From: a virus | Strand: one strand, 5' to 3' | DNA length: 21,533 nucleotides | IMG/VR virus record: IMGVR_UViG_3300034280_000314 | Span: 1 to 21,533 of that record | Shown here: in pieces, positions 2,742 through 15,939 of the stretch | Layout: each line of letters opens with the position of its first letter | Numbering within the stretch: position 1 is the stretch's first letter | The notes under the pieces: generated by a model | The model's input: only the letters and a program-made list of their open reading frames with translations | The model's database searches: none | Told to the model about the DNA's origin: nothing | Made by a program: the position numbers and the translations under genes

Positions 2742-3169
2742 TGAACAATCTTGTCGTCAGCCAAAGGGATATTGGCAGGCAATGCGAAGAGCAAGTTGCG
2801 TCAATCTGCTCAATGCTTGGCTACAGCGTTTACATCCCTGAAAAGCAATCGTGCACGCCGTGGGACATTGAGGTAAACGGCATGCGAGTTCAGGTAAAGG
2901 CTAGGGATGGAGTTTATAGGCGAGACAGGATCAAGCTAAGGACAAACAGATGCAACACAGAGATTGCCTACCTGTGTTCCGATGTCGATTTCTTTGTGAT
3001 TCGATTTCTACCGATCTGGTTTGTAATCCCATCGTTTGCCATTGCGAACCAAGCCGGAGAAGTGCGCAACGCGATTTATCCGGCAAAACTAGGCGAATGG
3101 ACTAATAGATGGGACGCGATCAAAGGCGACAGGGTGTTGTACTCACGGCAGAAGTGTTTTGAATTTTAG
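2741..3169 (+). CDS. PD-(D/E)XK nuclease-like protein
   Basis: A 142-residue protein. The ATG at 2741 overlaps the previous stop (TGATG) and has GGAGGAA at 2728-2734, 6 bases upstream; an in-frame ATG at 2726 is less well placed. The layout is that of a small PD-(D/E)XK fold: helix with E16/E17, GYSVYIPE, then D42 in PWDIEVNG and QVK at 51-53 as the catalytic strand, followed by DVDFFVIRFLPIWFVIP, a pattern of the PDDEXK_5-type endonucleases. The QxK variant replaces the usual E/DxK. The gene is visibly richer in A+T and in AAA, AAT and ATT codons than its neighbours, which suggests recent acquisition. It could be a homing-type, repair or host-DNA nuclease; activity is inferred only. Confidence 0.65.
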   Translation: MNNLVVSQRDIGRQCEEQVASICSMLGYSVYIPEKQSCTPWDIEVNGMRVQVKARDGVYRRDRIKLRTNRCNTEIAYLCSDVDFFVIRFLPIWFVIPSFAIANQAGEVRNAIYPAKLGEWTNRWDAIKGDRVLYSRQKCFEF

Positions 3170-3179
3170 AAAGCCGACA

Positions 3180-4097
3180 ATGGCTGCTGAATGGTTCCCC
3201 GTTGACGTCTCGCTCGACACCAAGCCAGAAGTGCAGGAACTCGTTGACCTAACCGGCGAGCCGGTTGAGGTCATCGTGTTCCGGTTGCTCAAACTCTGGG
3301 GCTGGGTGCAGCTAAACACTGCCGATGGCACTTTCCGTTCCACGCCTGCCAGGCTTGGACGCATCTGCGGCGGTGACGCACCGTTTTGGGAAGCCGTGGC
3401 GGCTGTCGGGTGGATCGTGTTCGACGGCGAAACTGCCCAGATACCCAAATGGGAAGAGCGTTTCGGCGGTGCCGCCAAGCGTAGAGCACTGAAAAACAGG
3501 CGTCAGGACAAGTGGAGACGCACCGGAGGCGCACCTGTAGACGCGCCTGTAGACGCGCACGAGGCGCAGGTGCGTCTACAGGCGCGTCTACCACAGTACA
3601 TAACAGGACAGGACATAACAGAACAGGAAATACAACCTGCTGCGCAGGTAGCTACGAGCGAACCGCCGAAGCGGCGGAAACGCTCGCAGCCCGCAGACGC
3701 CGTTTCGTGGTCTGCTGACGCAGGATGGCAGGGGATCACGGACGCAGACCGGCAGGAATGGCGTCAGGCGTACCCAGCGTGCGATCTAACGGCAGAACTC
3801 GCCAAAGCCGCCTCCTGGCTCAAGGCGAACCCGACAAAGGCTCACAAGAGCAACTGGCGACGTTTCGTCGTCTCGTGGCTGACACGCTCTCAGGACCGTG
3901 GCGGGACGAACCGTACGCCTGGCGTTCGTCCTGACGAGCGAGCACCGGCGAAGTCGTGGGACGAGCGTCCCAGCTACCGGGCAGAGTTCCAACGATCCAT
4001 GACGGACGCCGAGTACCGGCGTGCCAAACAGGGCAAGGGCGGCATGGTCGCCGCGCTTGCAGGCTCGATCAAACTCACGGACGAGGTGAACGAATGA
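3180..4097 (+). CDS. replication initiation / helicase-loader-like protein
   Basis: A 305-residue protein resembling phage O-type initiators. Residues 1-95 look like a winged-helix N-terminal domain (EWFPVDVSLDTKPEVQEL, then LLKLWGWVQL and FWEAVAAVGWI). Residues 100-175 are a charged, low-complexity linker. Residues 175-240 contain a short helical domain ending in HKSNWRRFVVSWLTR, a motif common at the end of phage replication proteins. The ATG at 3180 is chosen over an in-frame TTG at 3159; the RBS is weak (AGAAAG at 3168-3173). The linker-coding DNA carries a repeat array, as in lambda O. The 3' end overlaps the LexA-like gene (ATGA). A primosome role is inferred from architecture and position. 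Confidence 0.68.
   Translation: MAAEWFPVDVSLDTKPEVQELVDLTGEPVEVIVFRLLKLWGWVQLNTADGTFRSTPARLGRICGGDAPFWEAVAAVGWIVFDGETAQIPKWEERFGGAAKRRALKNRRQDKWRRTGGAPVDAPVDAHEAQVRLQARLPQYITGQDITEQEIQPAAQVATSEPPKRRKRSQPADAVSWSADAGWQGITDADRQEWRQAYPACDLTAELAKAASWLKANPTKAHKSNWRRFVVSWLTRSQDRGGTNRTPGVRPDERAPAKSWDERPSYRAEFQRSMTDAEYRRAKQGKGGMVAALAGSIKLTDEVNE
3534..3594. repeat. direct and inverted 12-base repeats within the initiator gene (candidate origin)
   Basis: Two perfect tandem copies of CCTGTAGACGCG occupy 3534-3545 and 3546-3557. After a 13-base spacer two inverted copies follow: TGCGTCTACAGG (3571-3582, one mismatch) and CGCGTCTACCAC (3583-3594, diverging over the last bases). Together they form a near-perfect long inverted repeat. 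The 12-base unit is a multiple of three, so the array encodes APVDAPVDA and related residues in the linker of the initiator. In lambda the origin iterons lie at the same place, inside gene O. Origin function is inferred. Confidence 0.6.
3600..3629. repeat. A-rich 15-base direct repeat next to the iteron-like array
   Basis: ATAACAGGACAGGAC (3600-3614) is followed at once by ATAACAGAACAGGAA (3615-3629), matching at 13 of 15 positions. The stretch is purine-rich on one strand and more A+T-rich than its surroundings. It begins 5 bases after the inverted-repeat array, the place where an origin's unwinding element would be expected. It also encodes linker residues ITGQDITEQE. Confidence 0.5.
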
Positions 4098-4333: not shown

Positions 4334-4521
4334 AGCCCGAGTGGCAGTACCTCCCGGCACCGCTCGATGTCGTGCAGGCGCTCATGGATCGTGCGTGGGA
4401 CGACGACGTGAGCGACGACGACCGGACGCTGTTCGAGACGGGTGCTACGGCGCTGAAGGCTTCGCTAGAGCGAAACGTGAAGCTGGCAAGCGTCATTGAG
4501 AAATCGGAGTTGGGGCTATGA
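4330..4521 (+). CDS. small acidic hypothetical protein
   Basis: A 63-residue ORF joined by 4-base overlaps to the genes on both sides (ATGA at 4330 and at 4518). It has an acidic centre (DRAWDDDVSDDDRTLFE) and a predicted helical C-terminus. I do not recognise the family. The tight overlaps are the main reason to believe it is translated. Confidence 0.6.
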   Translation: MKPEWQYLPAPLDVVQALMDRAWDDDVSDDDRTLFETGATALKASLERNVKLASVIEKSELGL

Positions 4522-5837
4522 GGTACGCAAGCGTTTGCGACGGCATCGGAGCGGCCCATGTTGCTTGGAGGCATCTGGGCTGGGAGTGCGTATGGACGAG
4601 CGAGATCGAACCGTTTCCGGCCACGGTCGTCGATCACCACTTTGCGTTCAAGAACGTGGGCGACATGACCAAGATCACAGAGGAGATGCTTGATGAGCTC
4701 GGCCCAGTTGAACTTCTGGTCGGAGGAACACCGTGCCAATCCTTTTCAGTCGCAGGACTGCGAGGTGGCTTGGATGACCCGCGTGGCAACTTGGCCCTCC
4801 GATTCGTCCAGCTTGCTGCTGTCCTCAAGCCCGAATGGATCGTTTGGGAAAACGTCTCGGGCGTCCTCAGTAGTGGCGAAGGACGGGATTTTGTCACCTT
4901 CCTCGGGGCGTTGGGCGAACTCGGGTATGGGTTCGCATACCGAATTCTTGACGCTCAGTGGTTTGGAGTCGCCCAGCGCCGTCGCCGTGTGTTCGTTGTC
5001 GCACACGCTGGAGACTGGCGTCGTGCCGCAGCGGTACTTTTTGAGCGCGAAAGCGTGTTCGGGAATCCTCCGACGCGCGGCGAATCGTGGCAAGAAGTTA
5101 CCGGCCCAATTGCAGGATGCTCTAACGGCGGCGGCGCAAATGGGCCTGGAAGAACAGCCGGCGACGCCGACACGCTGGTGACTTCGTCGGTTACATCGAA
5201 GTGGAGCAAAGGCACTGGCGGCCCTTCGGGTGATGAGTGCCAGAATCTTGTCGCCTTTCACCCAACGCAAGACCCGATCAGCAGCGATGACGGCTCGACG
5301 CACGCGATGGGCTGCGGCTCGAAGGGCGGTTGCTGCACGCAGGCCGTGGCCGTCCGCACGGCCCAGACTTCTGCGGACGGGCACGGCGTGGCTCACGATG
5401 TGACGCATACGCTGGATCGTGTGCAGGGGCAGGCCGTGGCGTTCTCGCACTCTGCCGCCGCCAACTCGCACGGCGTCGCGTATGTCGAGGAAGGCACGCC
5501 TCCGCTTCGTGGAGGTGGTGCTGGGAACTCAATGCCCGCAGTTGCCTTCAACGCATATCAGCGAACCGAAGGCCAAGCGACTTGGCCTCTCGGCGCGAGC
5601 GACGGCCGAAAAGTCGAGGTTGGCGTTCGCCAAGCGATGGCCGTCCGCCGCCTAACTCCACGAGAGTGCGAGCGGCTGCAAGGCTTCCCAGACGATTACA
5701 CGCTCGTCACCTACCGCAACAAGCCAGCAGCAGACGGGCCACGATACAAGGCACTCGGCAACTCAATGGCGGTGCCTGTGATGCGTTGGATAGGCGAGCG
5801 GATTGCATCGGTTGATAGCCTCGACGGAGCAACGTGA
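4518..5837 (+). CDS. DNA (cytosine-5) methyltransferase
   Basis: A 439-residue C5 methyltransferase. Visible motifs are I (SVCDGIGAA, 5-13), IV with the catalytic Cys (GGTPCQSFS, Cys73), VI (ENV, 111-113), VIII (AQRRRRVFVVA, 152-162), IX (RRLTPRECERLQGFPDDY, 377-394) and X (YKALGNSMAVPV, 410-421). The target-recognition region between VIII and IX is long (about 165-375) and holds four imperfect modules beginning LVAF (244), QAVAV (275), QAVAF (305) and PAVAF (340), so it may recognise more than one site. It overlaps its neighbours by 4 bases (ATGA) and about 1 base (TGATG). No cognate nuclease is nearby, so it is probably an anti-restriction or regulatory methylase. Part of it is overprinted by the ORF at 4693-5181. 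Confidence 0.93.
   Translation: MRYASVCDGIGAAHVAWRHLGWECVWTSEIEPFPATVVDHHFAFKNVGDMTKITEEMLDELGPVELLVGGTPCQSFSVAGLRGGLDDPRGNLALRFVQLAAVLKPEWIVWENVSGVLSSGEGRDFVTFLGALGELGYGFAYRILDAQWFGVAQRRRRVFVVAHAGDWRRAAAVLFERESVFGNPPTRGESWQEVTGPIAGCSNGGGANGPGRTAGDADTLVTSSVTSKWSKGTGGPSGDECQNLVAFHPTQDPISSDDGSTHAMGCGSKGGCCTQAVAVRTAQTSADGHGVAHDVTHTLDRVQGQAVAFSHSAAANSHGVAYVEEGTPPLRGGGAGNSMPAVAFNAYQRTEGQATWPLGASDGRKVEVGVRQAMAVRRLTPRECERLQGFPDDYTLVTYRNKPAADGPRYKALGNSMAVPVMRWIGERIASVDSLDGAT
4679..4685 (+). promoter_or_regulatory. internal Shine-Dalgarno for the nested ORF
   Basis: AGAGGAG lies inside the C5 methyltransferase gene, 7 bases before the ATG at 4693. That ATG is out of frame with the methyltransferase. 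The strength and spacing are as good as any RBS in the window. Confidence 0.55.
4693..5181 (+). CDS. overlapping ORF nested in the C5 methyltransferase gene
   Basis: A 162-residue ORF in the +1 frame relative to the methyltransferase, entirely inside codons 59-221. Its ATG has AGAGGAG 7 bases upstream. The C-terminal part, around VPQRYFLSAKACSGILRRA and then RGKKLPAQL, together with the SGRWANSGMGS segment, looks to me like a phage protein family often annotated as a stand-alone hypothetical next to or overlapping such methylases. That recollection is from memory and unchecked. The same bases encode methyltransferase motifs IV, VI and VIII. It carries no catalytic motif I can name. If not translated, the similarity would only reflect the conserved methylase read out of frame. 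Confidence 0.5.
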   Translation: MSSAQLNFWSEEHRANPFQSQDCEVAWMTRVATWPSDSSSLLLSSSPNGSFGKTSRASSVVAKDGILSPSSGRWANSGMGSHTEFLTLSGLESPSAVAVCSLSHTLETGVVPQRYFLSAKACSGILRRAANRGKKLPAQLQDALTAAAQMGLEEQPATPTRW

Positions 5838-6103
5838 TGAGCGACATCGCCCTCATCTGCACAGCATCGATTTTGCACGCCGTGACGTTCACGGTGGGCG
5901 TGTTAGTGGGTATTAGTCTCAGAAAGGACACGAGACATGACAGCAACGAAGGAACGACGAAAGACGCGGGCTGGTGGCATCAGCCTGTCGGCGTTGGAAC
6001 TCAAGGCGGCGCTCGCAGCCGTGGGACAAGCGGTGCCGAGCCGGTCGCCACGGCCCATCTACCAGAGCGTGCTCCTATCGGGCGGGGTGCTTTCTGGGAG
6101 TGA
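5837..6103 (+). CDS. small single-pass membrane protein (hypothetical)
   Basis: An 88-residue ORF whose ATG overlaps the methyltransferase stop (TGATG). Residues 4-27 form a hydrophobic segment (IALICTASILHAVTFTVGVL) followed by a positive stretch SLRKDTRH, as expected for a small inner-membrane protein. The last 55 residues overlap the clamp gene by 167 bases out of frame and have no recognisable features, so this tail may be of little importance. A holin-like or host-envelope role is possible but unsupported. Confidence 0.45.
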   Translation: MSDIALICTASILHAVTFTVGVLVGISLRKDTRHDSNEGTTKDAGWWHQPVGVGTQGGARSRGTSGAEPVATAHLPERAPIGRGAFWE

Positions 6104-7061
6104 CGGTGACATCAGGATTGACGTCACGCTGGAAAACGCCCCCCCCGGCATCAATTTCCTGCTGCCGAAGGATCGCTTTTCCGCCATCCTCGGCAGTTTC
6201 TCAGGCGATGAAATCACGATCACGCCTGACGATTCGTCGTGCGTCATCAAGGCTGGTCGTGGCGAGTGGACGCTACCGACGGAAGACGCTGGCGAGTATC
6301 CGGCGTCGAACGTGGACGGCGCAAAGCCCGTCACGAGGCTCCCTGTGGATCAGTTCTGCCGTGCGGTGAAAGGCGTGGTTTTTGCTGTCGATGACGAGTC
6401 GAGCCGCTACGCTCTCGGTGCGGTGCTCGTGGAAGTCAAAGGCGAGGTTGTAACGTTTGTTGCGACGGACGGGCGACGGCTTTCGTGCGTCAACTGCGAG
6501 CACGACCTAGCGGTGGACGACTCGCAGACGCTCGTGCCGGCTCGTGCCATGGCGATCATTGCACGGCTCGCGGCTGCATTCGGTGATGCCAGCGTTCAGC
6601 TTGAGGCAACCAAAAACGAAATCGTTGCCACGGTTGGCAACGCTACCGTCACGGCTCGTCTGCTCGACGGTCGATACCCTCGGTGGCGTGACACGCTGCC
6701 GGAACGTGACGCTAAGGCAACGACGGTCAGCCGTGCGGATCTGCTGGCAGCGACGAGGGCCGCAGCCATCGTCACCAGCGACGAGAGCAAGGGCGTTGAG
6801 TTCGTGTTCTCTGGAGACGGCATCTGGCTGCACGGGCAGAGCAGAGAGAAGGGCGAATCGAGCGTCACCTGTGACGTGGTGGAAGCCGGCGACAAGGCGA
6901 CGGTCAAGCTCGATCCGCTCTTCGTGCAGCAGTGGCTTGGCGGCATCGACAGCGAGGCAGAGCCGGAAGTCGAAGTCGAAGCCGTGGACGCACAGTCTGC
7001 TGTGATTCTGCGATGCGGCGACAACACGGGCGTGATCATGCCACTGGCGGTGGACGCCTGA
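5937..7061 (+). CDS. dnaN: DNA polymerase III beta sliding clamp
   Basis: A 374-residue protein of normal bacterial DnaN length. Diagnostic features are the N-terminal ISLSALELKAALAAVGQAV, the second-domain VTFVATDGRRLS, the RYPRWRDTLP segment and the C-terminal NTGVIMPLAVDA, the equivalent of the usual IMPMRL end. It forms a ring around DNA that tethers polymerase. The ATG at 5937 has GAAAGGA at 5922-5928, 8 bases upstream. No phage polymerase is in the window, so it may replace or compete with the host clamp. The next gene starts on its stop codon (TGATG). Confidence 0.9.
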   Translation: MTATKERRKTRAGGISLSALELKAALAAVGQAVPSRSPRPIYQSVLLSGGVLSGSDGDIRIDVTLENAPPGINFLLPKDRFSAILGSFSGDEITITPDDSSCVIKAGRGEWTLPTEDAGEYPASNVDGAKPVTRLPVDQFCRAVKGVVFAVDDESSRYALGAVLVEVKGEVVTFVATDGRRLSCVNCEHDLAVDDSQTLVPARAMAIIARLAAAFGDASVQLEATKNEIVATVGNATVTARLLDGRYPRWRDTLPERDAKATTVSRADLLAATRAAAIVTSDESKGVEFVFSGDGIWLHGQSREKGESSVTCDVVEAGDKATVKLDPLFVQQWLGGIDSEAEPEVEVEAVDAQSAVILRCGDNTGVIMPLAVDA

Positions 7062-9897: not shown

Positions 9898-11997
9898 ATG
9901 CCCAAAAACTCAGCTAGATCGCAACGCGAGGACGCCGCTCGCCTCAGGCACCAAAAAGAGAATGTGCGGGCGGGGCACCGATCCAGAGAAGTTCACAACA
10001 CCGCCAGAGACATTGGCGACCTTCCCGCCGTTGCAAACCACAAACGCAGAGACTCATGCCGAAACTCTTTCCAGCAGTTTTGCGAAACGTACGGCACTGA
10101 ATCCTTTCCGTTGGCGTGGTCCGCTGACCATCTGACGGCTATCGCCAAGATTGAGGCGGCTGTGCTGCGTGGCGAGTTGTTCGCCTTCGCCATGCCCCGT
10201 GGGTCTGGCAAGAGCACGCTGTCGATCTGGGCGTGCATCTGGGCAATGCTGTACGGGCACCGCTCTTTCGTAATGCTGGTCGGTGCGGATCAATCCATAG
10301 CTTGTCAGATGCTCGACATCGTCAAGGCTCACCTAGAAACAAACGACCTGCTTTTGGAGGATTTCCCAGAGGCGTGCTTTCCGATCCGTGCCCTTGAGCG
10401 AATTAGCCAGAGAGCCAAAGGCCAGACGTACCAAGGCGAGCCTACGCAGCTGGAGTGGACCGCAGACCAGATCACCCTAGCATGGATTCCTGGTGCGCCT
10501 TCAGCGGGTGCAGCTGTTCGCGTAGCTGGCATTACAGGCCGCATACGAGGTGCGCAGCACATTTGCGCAGACGGAAAAACAGTGAGACCGTCTCTTGTGC
10601 TGATCGACGACCCACAGACTGACGAGTCGTCAGCGTCGCCGTCGCAGGTCGCCACCCGTGAACGCATCCTTTCCGGTGCCATCCTCGGGCTCGCCGGGCC
10701 GGGCGCGAAGATCGCTGGCTTGGCGACCATCACGGTCATTCGTCCCGACGACCTGGCTGACCGGCTGCTGGACCGCATGCGGCACCCGTCGTGGCAAGGC
10801 GAGCGTACGAAGTTGATCTACGAGTGGCCGACGGCGGATGAACTGTGGGGCCAGTATTCCGAGATGCGTCGAGAGGGGCAGCGTAGCGGTGAAGGCACTG
10901 CGGCGGCTGACGCCTTCTATCGGGCGAATCAGGCGACGATGGACGCCGGGTCTCGGGTGGCGTGGCCGGAACGGAAGCACGACGACGAACTGACGGCGAT
11001 ACAGCATGCGTGGAATCTACGGATTGACCGTGGCGAGAGTGCGTTCCAAGCGGAGTACCAAAACGCACCGCTGGCGGATGACATCTCGTCCGAGAAACTC
11101 GACAAGCGGGCGCTCGCCGCTCGTGCGTTGACGCTCTCGCGTGGGACTGTCCCACTTTCCCACCAGACACTCACGGCGTTCATCGACGTGCAGGACAAAC
11201 TTCTTTACTGGCTGGTCGCATCGTGGGGCGATTCGTTCGGCGGTCACGTCGTGGCATACGGCACCTATCCCGACCAAGCGTCTACGTTCTTCGAGGCGAA
11301 GAACGCCAAGAAGACTTTGGCACTTTCTGCCAAGGGTGCCGGGTTCGAGGCGGCGCTGTCGGCTGGCTTGGAGTCGCTGACGCAGATTCTTCTCGGCAAG
11401 GATTGGATGCGTGAAGACGGCGTCGCCATGCGAGTGCGTCAGGTGCTCGTTGACGCCAACTGGGGGCAGTCCACTGAGACGGTGCGGACGTTCTGCCGTC
11501 GTTCGACGTTTGCGGCGATGTTGTTGCCATCTCACGGCAAGGGCATTGGTGCCAGCGGTGGCAGCTTGACCGAGAAGAAGGGGCGAGGCGAGAAGATCGG
11601 GCTGAACTGGGTCATGCGGCAGACGGCGACGAATCAACGCTACGGCGTCTACGACACGAACTTCTGGAAGACGTTCAGCGCGGCTCGGCTGCGGCTGGCG
11701 ATGGGCGACCCAGAGGCGATCACGCTGCACGCCGGCGAGCACGACATGCTCATCGAGCACCTGACCAGCGAATACCCGGTTCGCACTGAGGCACGCGGGC
11801 GAGTCGTTGACGAATGGAAGCTAGACAACCGCCGCGAGAATCACTGGTGGGACTGTCTCGTTGGGTCTGCGGTGGCGGCGTCGATTGCCGGCGTGCAGCC
11901 CGTGGCGACTGAGGCGGGTGGACGCCAGCGGAAAAAGGTGACAATCCCGACGAATTCAAACGGGAAAAAGATCATTCAGGTAAAGCGTCTCAAATGA
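9898..11997 (+). CDS. terL: terminase large subunit
   Basis: A 699-residue packaging motor and DNA-cutting enzyme. ATPase features are Walker A PRGSGKST (100-107) and Walker B LVLIDD (233-238) followed by PQTDES. The C-terminal RNase H-like nuclease has acidic residues at FIDVQD (D430), VLVDAN (D519) and HWWDCLVGSA (D652). The size and the WWDCLVGSAVAAS end fit the lambda gpA/GpA-like branch. The ATG at 9898 has no good RBS; a GTG at 9964 in the same frame is an alternative. The first ~50 residues are basic and poorly conserved in appearance. Its stop overlaps the next start (ATGA). Confidence 0.93.
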   Translation: MPKNSARSQREDAARLRHQKENVRAGHRSREVHNTARDIGDLPAVANHKRRDSCRNSFQQFCETYGTESFPLAWSADHLTAIAKIEAAVLRGELFAFAMPRGSGKSTLSIWACIWAMLYGHRSFVMLVGADQSIACQMLDIVKAHLETNDLLLEDFPEACFPIRALERISQRAKGQTYQGEPTQLEWTADQITLAWIPGAPSAGAAVRVAGITGRIRGAQHICADGKTVRPSLVLIDDPQTDESSASPSQVATRERILSGAILGLAGPGAKIAGLATITVIRPDDLADRLLDRMRHPSWQGERTKLIYEWPTADELWGQYSEMRREGQRSGEGTAAADAFYRANQATMDAGSRVAWPERKHDDELTAIQHAWNLRIDRGESAFQAEYQNAPLADDISSEKLDKRALAARALTLSRGTVPLSHQTLTAFIDVQDKLLYWLVASWGDSFGGHVVAYGTYPDQASTFFEAKNAKKTLALSAKGAGFEAALSAGLESLTQILLGKDWMREDGVAMRVRQVLVDANWGQSTETVRTFCRRSTFAAMLLPSHGKGIGASGGSLTEKKGRGEKIGLNWVMRQTATNQRYGVYDTNFWKTFSAARLRLAMGDPEAITLHAGEHDMLIEHLTSEYPVRTEARGRVVDEWKLDNRRENHWWDCLVGSAVAASIAGVQPVATEAGGRQRKKVTIPTNSNGKKIIQVKRLK

Positions 11998-12458: not shown

Positions 12459-12662
12459 ATGAGCGACGAACTACGCGCAAAGATTGCCGAGACGGCATCC
12501 GGTCCCAAGCGGGTCCGCACCGACGCAGGCGAAGTCGAGGCACAGGATGTCGCCTCAATGATTGAGGCTGACAAGTACCTCGCGGCGAAGGCTGCGAGTA
12601 CGGGCAGCAACACGCGGCGTGGACTGCGGTTCAACAAGCTCACGCCTCCAGGGACGATCTAG
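12459..12662 (+). CDS. gpW-like head-completion protein
   Basis: A 67-residue protein between terminase and portal, exactly where lambda has W (68 aa). The pattern LRAKIAETASGPKRVRTDAG, then DVASMIEADKYLAAKAA and a basic RRGLRFNKL with PPG end resembles gpW-type joining proteins. Such proteins close the portal and allow tail attachment. No SD is seen; a short palindrome GCGTC-T-GACGC (12448-12458) lies directly before the ATG. The call relies on synteny and size as much as on sequence. Confidence 0.55.
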   Translation: MSDELRAKIAETASGPKRVRTDAGEVEAQDVASMIEADKYLAAKAASTGSNTRRGLRFNKLTPPGTI

Positions 12663-14110
12663 TGGGACTGTTGGGCAACCTGTTCACGCGAGGCAACAGG
12701 CCGCAGCCGGCGGCGGTGCCGGTGCGTGTCCGTGCAAAGTTTGACGCTGCCGAGAGGGGCGACGACTACCGCCACTGGTCAGCCGCTGACGCCTTCGCTG
12801 CCGATACCGCACTGTCTCCTGAGAAGCGGCGCACGATGCGGAACCGCGCTCGCTACGAGCGAACCAGCAACTCATACCTCGCCGGGATGTCGGCGACACT
12901 CGCTAACGACCTTGTCGGCACCGGGCCACGGCTGCAACTACTTGACGATTCCGAGTCTGCCCGCGTTGCCGAGAAGGCGTTTTTTAACTGGACGTGGCAG
13001 GTCGATCTAGCCGCCAAGCTCCGCACAATGCGTGAGGCTCTCGTCGTTGACGGCGAAGCGTTCGCCATGATGATCACCAACCCTCGCCTCCCTGGCGTGC
13101 AGCTTGACGTGCGGCTGGTCGAGGCAGAGATGGTGAGCGAGCCGGTCAACCCGGTGAGCCCAAGCGTTTCGCCGGATGGCTCGACCGTCGATGGTCTGGA
13201 GTTTGACGCAATCGGCAACGTCGTTGCGTACCGGGTGCTGAACTACCACCCCGGCGCAAACTTCAGGATCAACGCTCTTGAGTACCAGCGTGTGCCGGCA
13301 GCGCAGATTGTGCATTGGTTCCGCCCTCTGCGGCCCGGCCAGCATCGCGGGCTTCCCGAGGTGGCGCCGGCGTTGAAGCTCTTTGCACAGCTTCGCCGCT
13401 ACACCGAGGCTGTCTGTGCTGCCGCCGAGACTGCTGCCGACTTCGCTGGATTCCTGCGGACGAACTCGCCTGCCGCCGAGGTGGACGAGGTCGAAGCGTT
13501 TGCTGAGATGCCCATCGAAAAAAGAACGATGGTCACGCTGCCAGACGGCTGGACTTTCGAGCAACTCAAGGCAGAGCAGCCGACATCCACGTACGCGATG
13601 TTTAAGCGTGAGATTCTGAACGAGATCGGTCGCTGCTTGCAGCTGCCTTTCAATATCGCTGCGTTGGATTCGTCGTCGTACAACTACGCAAGCGGTCGCA
13701 TGGATCACCAAGTCTATGCGACTACGCAGAAAATCATGCGTGACGATCTTGAGCGTGTGATGCTCGACCGTCTGCTTGCCGCTTGGGTGAACGAAGCCGC
13801 GCTGGCTGGCGTGCTTCCCGATGGACTGCCGCCGTTCTCGGAATGGGAATGGTCGTGGCAGTGGGACGGCAAGGAACACGTTGACCCGTCCAAGGAAGCC
13901 AACGCGGCAGAGACTCGGCTCCGCACGCACACGACAACGCTGGCGACTGAATACGCCAAGCAAGGCAAGCAGTGGGATGTCGAACTGCGTCAGCGTGCCG
14001 CCGAGGTGGCGCTGATGAAGGAACTCAACCTCTTCGTTGACTTCACGCCGGAAACGAACTACGGCGGAACGCTCGACGAGAACGGCGAACCAATGGGAGC
14101 CAAAGAGTGA
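12662..14110 (+). CDS. portal protein (lambda gpB family)
   Basis: A 482-residue portal that forms the dodecameric DNA entry ring. The start is a GTG overlapping the previous stop (TAGTG), with AGGGACG 5-6 bases upstream. Recognisable lambda-family features are RNRARYERTSNSYLAGM, LANDLVGTGPRLQ, AFFNWTW, HWFRPLRPGQHRGLPEVAP and the C-terminal region with SSYNYASGRMD. The length is close to gpB (about 530 aa). The gene is followed by the capsid gene with a GTGA overlap. Confidence 0.93.
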   Translation: MGLLGNLFTRGNRPQPAAVPVRVRAKFDAAERGDDYRHWSAADAFAADTALSPEKRRTMRNRARYERTSNSYLAGMSATLANDLVGTGPRLQLLDDSESARVAEKAFFNWTWQVDLAAKLRTMREALVVDGEAFAMMITNPRLPGVQLDVRLVEAEMVSEPVNPVSPSVSPDGSTVDGLEFDAIGNVVAYRVLNYHPGANFRINALEYQRVPAAQIVHWFRPLRPGQHRGLPEVAPALKLFAQLRRYTEAVCAAAETAADFAGFLRTNSPAAEVDEVEAFAEMPIEKRTMVTLPDGWTFEQLKAEQPTSTYAMFKREILNEIGRCLQLPFNIAALDSSSYNYASGRMDHQVYATTQKIMRDDLERVMLDRLLAAWVNEAALAGVLPDGLPPFSEWEWSWQWDGKEHVDPSKEANAAETRLRTHTTTLATEYAKQGKQWDVELRQRAAEVALMKELNLFVDFTPETNYGGTLDENGEPMGAKE

Positions 14111-15939
14111 ACGCAATCAAGTTGGATTCTGGCGTCACGTTTCTGCAAGCCGCCGACGGCGAATCGGCACCGGCTGGCAAGAAGTTCAGGATCGTCGCCT
14201 ACACGGGTGCTCCTATCCGTCAGGGCTGGAGCCGCGAGCCTGTCGTGATCGACATGGCTGGCATGCAGCTGCCGGCGACTGTGCCCGTGGTGGTCGGTCA
14301 CGACTACGCACTTGGTTCCATCGTCGGGCAGGGTCGCCCGTTTATCGAAGCCGGGCAGATCATCGTTGAAGGCGAGATCCTGGCCGACAACGAGAACGCA
14401 CGTCAGGTCGCCGCTCTTGGTGCCGCTGGCTACCAGTTTCAGGCGAGCGTTGGTGCTGATGTCAGGCGGCACCAGAAGATTGACGCTGAAGGCGTCACCA
14501 CCGTCAACGGCACTGCCCACATCGGGCCAGTGCGAGTCGTCAAAGCCTCATCGCTGCGTGAGGTTTCGTTTGTCACCTTGGGCGCTGATGCAGCTACCAG
14601 CGTCGCCATTGCCGCCGAAGAGGTGGCAGAGGAGTCAGTCATGGCGGACCACGCCAGCGAGAAGCCTGCCGACGTCGTCGAGACGCCGGTGGAAGTCACG
14701 GCGAGCGTCGCCGTGGTGGCCGAGAACGAAGTCAAGCAGGACGCCAACGAGGCTCTCCTGGCTCGGCTCGCAACCTACGAAAAGAAAGTTTCCGACATGG
14801 AAAAGCTGATCGCCACCCGCGACGAGCGTCCTGCGGCTCCTGCCGTTCACATGGCGCAGCCGACCGCTCGCACGCCCGAAGTCATCGAGGCAGCGTTCGC
14901 CCTCCAAGGCGGCCTGCCGAATGTCGAGAAGCAGTACGACGCCAAGACCCTCGAAGCCGCTGGCAAGATCCAGCGGACCACGAGCCTCGGCGAAGTGCTG
15001 CTCTCGGCTGCCGAGGAAGGCGGCTACACCGGCTCGCGTCGGATCTCCGCTGCGACTCTGCGTCCAATTCTCGCTGCGGCGTGGGCGACCCACAGCATCA
15101 GCGGCATCCTGTCCAGCACCGTCAACAAGTTCCTCCTCGCCGGCTTTAACGGCGTTGAAAGCTCGTGGCGGTCGATCTCGTCGGTGCGTAGCGTGAACGA
15201 CTTCAAGGCGCTGACGAGCTACCGGCTCAACGGCGGCATGAAGTTTGAGAAGGTCGCCCCTGGCGGCGAACTCAAGAACGCTGCCGTCAGCGACGAGTCG
15301 CGGACGATCTCGGCAGAGACCTACGGCATCATGACGAGCGTCACTCGCAATGACCTCATCAACGATGACCTCGGTGCTCTGACTGCGGTTCCGCAGCGTA
15401 TCGGTCGCGGTGGTGCTCTGAAGTTGAATGACGTTTTCTGGGCTTCGTTCCAAGACGACTCGGCGTTCTTCACCACGGGCCGTGGCAACAAGAAGACCAC
15501 GGCTGGTGCTCTGAGCCTGTCGAACCTCAAGGCGATTGCCACGCTGTTCCGCAAGCTCAAGGATCCCGATGGCAACCCGGTTGCCGTCGAGCCCCGCGTG
15601 CTGCTCGTGCCGTCCGACATTGAACTGTCGGCTGCGGAGATCATGGGCTCGGCGTTGCTGGTTGGCGGTTCGTCCGCTGGCCCCAACGTGAACGTGCTCG
15701 CCGGTCGGTATCAGGTCGTTTCGACCAGCTACCTGTCCAGCGCCGAGGATTACTACCTGCTTGCGTCGCCGGCTGACATGCCGGTGATGGAGGTTGCCTT
15801 CCTCAACGGCGTGCAGTCGCCCGTGGTGGAGACGGCGGAAGCCGACTTCAACACGCTGGGCGTGCAGATGCGTGGCTACTTCGACTTTGGCGTTGCCAAG
15901 GCCGAGTACCTCGCCGGCGTGAAGGCTGACGCTTCTTGA
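14107..15939 (+). CDS. prohead protease-scaffold-major capsid fusion protein
   Basis: One 610-residue frame joins three functions. Residues 1-170 look like a herpes/HK97-type prohead serine protease: VPVVVGHDY (candidate catalytic H65), FQASVGADV (candidate S114), then REVSFVTLGA. Residues 170-255 are a linker with a helix (212-240) like a scaffold or delta domain. From about 256 the HK97-fold capsid follows, with SSWRSISSVRSVNDFK, SVTRNDLINDDLGAL and a C-terminus resembling Mu gpT/major head subunits. The start is a GTG at 14107 (GTGA overlap), with GGGAG before it. An internal SD and ATG (14641) may yield the capsid part alone. Confidence 0.85.
   Translation: MNAIKLDSGVTFLQAADGESAPAGKKFRIVAYTGAPIRQGWSREPVVIDMAGMQLPATVPVVVGHDYALGSIVGQGRPFIEAGQIIVEGEILADNENARQVAALGAAGYQFQASVGADVRRHQKIDAEGVTTVNGTAHIGPVRVVKASSLREVSFVTLGADAATSVAIAAEEVAEESVMADHASEKPADVVETPVEVTASVAVVAENEVKQDANEALLARLATYEKKVSDMEKLIATRDERPAAPAVHMAQPTARTPEVIEAAFALQGGLPNVEKQYDAKTLEAAGKIQRTTSLGEVLLSAAEEGGYTGSRRISAATLRPILAAAWATHSISGILSSTVNKFLLAGFNGVESSWRSISSVRSVNDFKALTSYRLNGGMKFEKVAPGGELKNAAVSDESRTISAETYGIMTSVTRNDLINDDLGALTAVPQRIGRGGALKLNDVFWASFQDDSAFFTTGRGNKKTTAGALSLSNLKAIATLFRKLKDPDGNPVAVEPRVLLVPSDIELSAAEIMGSALLVGGSSAGPNVNVLAGRYQVVSTSYLSSAEDYYLLASPADMPVMEVAFLNGVQSPVVETAEADFNTLGVQMRGYFDFGVAKAEYLAGVKADAS
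14628..14634 (+). promoter_or_regulatory. internal Shine-Dalgarno in the capsid fusion gene
   Basis: AGAGGAG is 6 bases before an in-frame ATG at 14641. It falls between the protease region and the scaffold/capsid region. It is a stronger SD than the one before the GTG of the full-length product. Confidence 0.6.
14641..15939 (+). CDS. scaffold-major capsid protein from internal start
   Basis: Translation from the internal ATG (Met179 of the fusion) would give a 432-residue protein with a short N-terminal scaffold-like helix and the complete HK97-fold capsid, without the protease. Lambda makes its scaffold Nu3 in the same way, from an internal start in the protease gene C. The strong SD suggests this is the abundant form and the GTG product the minor, protease-bearing form. 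This is inference from the sequence. Confidence 0.5.
   Translation: MADHASEKPADVVETPVEVTASVAVVAENEVKQDANEALLARLATYEKKVSDMEKLIATRDERPAAPAVHMAQPTARTPEVIEAAFALQGGLPNVEKQYDAKTLEAAGKIQRTTSLGEVLLSAAEEGGYTGSRRISAATLRPILAAAWATHSISGILSSTVNKFLLAGFNGVESSWRSISSVRSVNDFKALTSYRLNGGMKFEKVAPGGELKNAAVSDESRTISAETYGIMTSVTRNDLINDDLGALTAVPQRIGRGGALKLNDVFWASFQDDSAFFTTGRGNKKTTAGALSLSNLKAIATLFRKLKDPDGNPVAVEPRVLLVPSDIELSAAEIMGSALLVGGSSAGPNVNVLAGRYQVVSTSYLSSAEDYYLLASPADMPVMEVAFLNGVQSPVVETAEADFNTLGVQMRGYFDFGVAKAEYLAGVKADAS

Follow-up and report, generated by a model that had tools for sequence, protein, structure and literature searches.

Can a phage gene for a C5 cytosine DNA methyltransferase carry a second gene across its own catalytic motifs, and what might the second product contribute to the first? 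These questions are raised by a locus in a viral sequence of 21,533 bp, analysed over its whole length and called the window here, which by its gene content is an ordinary tailed-phage segment with replication, terminase, portal and head genes. The features to which we refer are the following, in window coordinates:

54-1556: helicase (PHROGs)
3159-4097: replication initiator (PHROGs)
4518-5837, plus strand: alpha, C5 cytosine DNA methyltransferase of 439 aa with motifs I-VIII, IX and X (PF00145, E 3e-54; PHROG 116, E 5e-88)
4679-4685, plus strand: Shine-Dalgarno (SD) sequence AGAGGAG of beta, within alpha codons, 7 nt before the ATG
4693-5181, plus strand: beta, nested gene of 162 aa in the +1 frame relative to alpha (ATG at 4693; stop ends at 5181)
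4722-4748, plus strand: alpha motif IV, GGTPCQSFS, overlapped by beta
4974-5000, plus strand: alpha motif VIII, QRRRRVFVV, overlapped by beta
4996-5097, plus strand: conserved C-terminal core of beta, residues 102-135 (LSHTLETGVVPQRYFLSAKACSGILRRAANRGKK), compared by hhalign with the Dcm-type linker
5643-5699, plus strand: alpha motif IX (VRRLTPRECERLQGFPDDY), alpha residues 376-394, in the alpha frame beyond the overlap
5742-5783, plus strand: alpha motif X (RYKALGNSMAVPVM)
5937-7061: polymerase-processivity-factor-like protein (PHROGs)
9898-11997: terminase (PHROGs)
12662-14110: portal (PHROGs)
14107-15939: fused head-protease/major-head-like protein (PHROGs)

The overlap corresponds to alpha codons 59-221 and contains motifs IV (GGTPCQSFS), VI (WENV) and VIII (QRRRRVFVV). 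This arrangement, a 162-codon +1 ORF wholly inside the methylase, spanning the three motifs and preceded at 7 bases by AGAGGAG, had been proposed in a preliminary description of the window, and its positions all proved correct. The same description had taken A-ending methylase codons in the overlap as a sign of a second coding constraint; the codons GGA GGA ACA are indeed found at 4722-4730, but the enrichment is modest, third-position A amounting to 21% in alpha within the overlap versus 9% before and 14% after it.

Anti-SD pairing is predicted to be stronger at the beta start (-9.1) than at the methylase start (-6.1). At homologous loci, an ATG is found at or near the beta start position in 110/133 cases, and an SD-like AGGA, GGAG or GAGG motif lies 5-13 nt upstream of 104/133 (78%) of the starts, versus 12% of the other ATGs in the same genes. 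Anti-SD energies of beta starts and of random in-frame interior positions, a less specific test, did not differ (P 0.25). Within the window gene alone, synonymous-codon shuffling yielded an equally long run in 41% of the shuffles (P = 0.41) and a +1 frame free of stops across the beta span in 7% of them. As the length of the ORF in this single gene is no more than expected by chance, proof that beta is coding can only be comparative.

Coding in both frames

To this end, 80 IMG/VR loci were collected by means of the methylase protein, and thus not selected for the second frame. The +1 ORF was present and open in 80/80 of them (tblastn E 1e-26 to below 1e-100). Across the aligned span of 71 non-redundant relatives, no in-frame stop was encountered in the +1 frame, versus 206 expected by synonymous shuffling. 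We further analysed the fourfold degenerate sites of alpha, whose third positions coincide with position 2 of the beta codons. Identity at these sites was 34% upstream and 37% downstream of beta, which is near saturation, versus 51-96% inside it; expressed as difference, values of 0.62-0.66 outside stand against 0.10-0.48 inside the overlap (by column, Mann-Whitney P = 2e-18), and a sequence-resampling bootstrap put the difference between the two at 0.31 +/- 0.01. The constraint spans the whole beta ORF and drops off at its end. In the P1-type group, fourfold identity in alpha was likewise 0.82 in the beta core, versus 0.44 before and 0.49 after it.

The pattern is most pronounced at alpha codons 181-195, where identity at codon positions 1, 2 and 3 was 0.48, 0.80 and 0.85. 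Since amino-acid identity of alpha in this stretch is only 0.43, conservation here is driven by the nested frame. In the beta core, third positions that are silent in beta differ at 0.58, versus 0.10 at sites silent in alpha; beta-silent sites thus vary while alpha-silent sites are fixed, which points to a +1-frame protein and not to a DNA or RNA element. A cis-acting element with an incidental ORF is refuted as the sole cause by this +1 periodicity and may be regarded as very improbable: such elements also suppress synonymous change, and the lack of an Rfam match in the window pertains to described families only, but the freely varying core sites are exactly the third positions silent in the +1 frame, and the constraint runs along the entire ORF and ends with it, with none of the 206 expected stops. 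A chance ORF that owes its likeness to the conserved methylase motifs, a reading to which the unremarkable length of the ORF in the window would lend itself, is refuted and practically dismissed, because the sites that fix beta residues are conserved where alpha itself is not, and because the same frame of a comparison set of 80 related Dcm-type methylases holds a median of 11 stops, with a median longest run of 85 codons.

Taken together, the substitution patterns show that beta is a real protein-coding gene under strong protein-level selection, conserved across very different phages. Dual coding over the catalytic motifs, as the preliminary description had suggested, is supported by the homologues with their intact ORFs and start sites, by synonymous variation that is restricted within the overlap and unrestrained beyond it, and by the absence of second-frame stops in related methylases; on these grounds we regard it as nearly certain.

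Distribution of the nested frame and its likeness to a methylase segment

The nested frame was found in hundreds of relatives, phage P1 among them. Its phage and plasmid hosts include P1 (dmt), P7, SJ46 and related plasmids, phages of Vibrio, Pectobacterium, Enterobacter, Providencia, Aeromonas and Morganella (Straboviridae), mycobacteriophages, and phages of Streptococcus, Lactobacillus and Caulobacter, including the 322-kb CcrBL9; bacterial genomes with the frame are those of Acidobacteria, Proteobacteria, Planctomycetota, Actinomycetota and Desulfobacterota-type bacteria. All 80 of the 80 beta loci from GTDB overlap a C5 methylase with the same relative reading frame, three of them (L231, L236 and L240) with rearranged or broken frames, and the same holds for 9/9 beta places (6 genomes) in a 299-genome sample and for all phage and plasmid loci that were opened; in the phage and plasmid listings, methylases are named under nearly all beta matches. 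Neither the 80 GTDB loci, the 9 places of the 299-genome sample nor the opened phage and plasmid loci yielded a free-standing beta. Another possible reason for such constant nesting is that overlapping genes do not easily come apart.

Several individual loci deserve mention. In the bacterial loci L236 (2830-3888), L240 (2983-4491) and L231 (2962-3456 and 3466-4326) the nested frame either continues into the methylase C-terminal half or has this half behind it in the same frame, so that alpha and beta exchange the C-terminal half. In an Escherichia marmotae plasmid (L454:1077-2144), where the methylase is unannotated, the nested frame is intact and the alpha frame is broken after the overlap. 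The P1 ORF (L161:2183-2656, corresponding to about 66728-67201 of AF234172, where it is unannotated) shares with the window the conserved core and an internal start, here a GGAG 7 nt before the ATG; it differs by a shorter beta N-terminus, and dmt includes an adenine methylase portion as well. Beyond GILRR, the final ~20 beta residues of P7 and SJ46 are unlike those of P1, which gives the impression of an exchanged tail.

The C-terminal phrase of beta had been thought to belong to a recurrent phage protein, and it does recur in phages: PHROG 16143 matches the window beta (E 1.7e-12, residues 28-121), 24/27 relatives and, at E 5e-82, orf14 of Streptococcus phage MM1. The latter is nested in orf13 and was annotated by its depositors as 'C5 methyltransferase beta subunit'. 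The nested frame as such is thus annotated in MM1 and grouped in PHROGs. Searches of Pfam and NCBIfam with beta gave no match, and PDB searches by sequence and by fold gave nothing meaningful (model pLDDT 66). The C-terminus is predicted as helical and basic with pLDDT above 90. Our literature search found no paper that describes a gene nested within phage C5 methylases, and none on the conservation of beta, its presence in P1 or a frame change.

The beta core, with the consensus LSDTLETGDVPQRYFLSAKACxGILRRAEKRGK, lies directly 3' of alpha motif VIII, and alpha fourfold sites are 90-96% identical in the stretch following it. At that place, Dcm-type enzymes read in their own frame LxDILxxxVxxKYxLSdxLWxYLxxYAxKHxxxGNGFG, between motif VIII and the target recognition domain (TRD). 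With an unbiased Dcm set, hhalign returned a weak match between the beta core and this in-frame linker (P 2e-4, probability 46%). Wider profiles gave P 2.1e-6 and 8e-8 and aligned the two at exactly the corresponding place, over only about 34 residues and with a wider canonical set and bridging loci that had been retrieved with a motif-containing query. In the bridging viral loci (L419, L430, L436 and L444), translation of the nested frame gives LSDILEENPDQKYFLSE..RANKHKEKGNGFGQ (LSDILEENPDQKYFLSESALQRMTARANKHKEKGNGFGQ), which shares 46% identity with the canonical linker (P 1.3e-13), and alpha reads GHLRGKPRPKVFP from the DNA that encodes this linker-like segment. Alignment of the window alpha with canonical enzymes recovered motifs I-VIII, IX and X and no counterpart of the linker segment. 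These comparisons support a correspondence of the beta core to the canonical linker, which would be missing from alpha's own frame.

In L419, L428, L430, L436 and L444, the nested frame extends further into the recognition-domain segment (KHKEKGNGFGQVIYQRLTDTITK), and these loci offer the most favourable material for following how the frame changed.

A possible two-polypeptide methylase

What, then, might beta do? We consider it probable, though by no means assured, that the locus encodes a two-polypeptide C5 methylase with beta as a nested partner subunit. In this model, alpha would provide the catalytic motifs I-VIII together with motifs IX-X, and translation of beta would start within alpha, at an SD and ATG of its own. 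Over its N-terminal two thirds, beta would be overprinted on alpha motifs IV-VIII, and its helical C-terminal core would represent the Dcm-type segment linking motif VIII to the TRD, as though this segment had moved into the other frame and been retained as a second chain. Beta may bind alpha and complete or adjust its DNA-recognition part, and the nesting may secure co-synthesis of the two. The preliminary description had offered a regulator of the methylase or an independent role; a methylase partner is favoured here, because beta was encountered only inside methylase genes and appears to carry a stretch known from ordinary methylases.

Alpha itself retains motifs IX and X, with some sequence in the place of the TRD, and thus might work alone. 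Its AF2 model is confident at residues 1-181 and about 370-439 and not at 182-360, which are unfolded in the model, weak evidence in view of the shallow alignment. The retention of both motifs by alpha would also suit a real nested protein that regulates the methylase, as inhibitor, chaperone or translational brake, and forms no structural part of it; so would the separate start and SD of beta and its constant co-encoding with alpha. We nevertheless consider such a regulator unlikely: it would have no need to resemble a methylase linker segment, and occasional free-standing copies would be expected. Less probable still is a function of beta unrelated to the methylase, such as DNA binding or anti-defence, merely overprinted on a conserved gene. 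Independent roles are frequent among viral overprinted genes, and the confidently predicted, helical and basic C-terminus would be compatible with one; the strict confinement to methylase genes, with no free-standing beta in 80 and 9 bacterial places or in the phage and plasmid loci opened, argues against it.

The reading of beta as a partner subunit can be compared with known systems. The gene for the large subunit of M.EcoHK31I contains an internal ORF, in a different frame, from which the small subunit is read. The window resembles this system in that its beta gene likewise lies out of frame inside the gene for the large polypeptide, and in that its large polypeptide has C5 motifs I-VIII and X. 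The two differ in that motif IX of M.EcoHK31I lies only on the small polypeptide, whereas in the window it lies on alpha with none in beta, which instead appears to carry the linker that follows motif VIII. With motif IX on alpha, the locus is therefore not of the M.EcoHK31I type and works like M.EcoHK31I at most. That C5 methylases can function as two polypeptides is documented for M.EcoHK31I (YGGCCR), consisting of a large and a small polypeptide, and for M.AquI (CYCGRG), split into alpha and beta (PMC3404938). The small subunit of M.AquI has the distal TRD and motifs IX-X, whereas in the window motifs IX-X are on alpha and beta is fully nested. MM1 orf13/orf14 shows the same +1 nesting and shares PHROG 16143 with the window beta; its beta is without the KACxGILRRA helix and ends early, and its methylase falls in another clade of the methylase tree.

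PHROG 1008-like frames (K1ind1 ORF28, LHTSCC gp80 and the ShroomBoi gp71 locus) are also +1 ORFs over phage C5 methylases, and differ in that a motif-IX-like LNPxFxxWLMGxPxxW replaces the KYFLSxKACxGILRRA core. Some of them are annotated as a second methyltransferase, and in K1ind1 and LHTSCC both frames are so annotated. The presence of motif IX in the K1ind1-type second frame is suggestive by eye and weak by profile comparison (P 0.0035), and this class may represent an EcoHK31I-type arrangement. This second C5 methylase class with a long +1 ORF was observed in K1ind1 (L254:1365-2189 and 1453-2145), in L250-L253, L255 and L257, and in L280.

Origin and meaning of the nested arrangement

In the methylase tree, nested forms appear in two places, a group comprising the window, P1 and mycobacteriophages and a group comprising MM1 and L419 beside the Dcm type; the K1ind1-type nested forms make up a third, well supported group. 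A single clade for the +1 family was considered and rejected, as the tree forces at least 2 changes. As the nested groups do not form one methylase clade, their history was not a simple single event, and the phylogeny suggests that the nested arrangement is either old and was lost, or has arisen more than once.

Dual coding over catalytic motifs thus extends to phages of Proteobacteria, Actinobacteria and Firmicutes and to genomes of Acidobacteria and others, with phage P1 as a testable example. We tentatively propose, as a plausible but far from secure extension, that the frame-shifted linker of a single-chain enzyme survived as a separate, obligately nested subunit, and that P1 Dmt and its like may be unrecognised two-polypeptide enzymes. 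If so, many 'orphan' phage C5 methylases would seem weak or inactive when the annotated ORF is cloned alone. Should beta be a subunit, one-gene annotation and cloning of such methylases would miss part of the enzyme, and the family would illustrate the conversion of a segment between domains into a second polypeptide by a change of frame.
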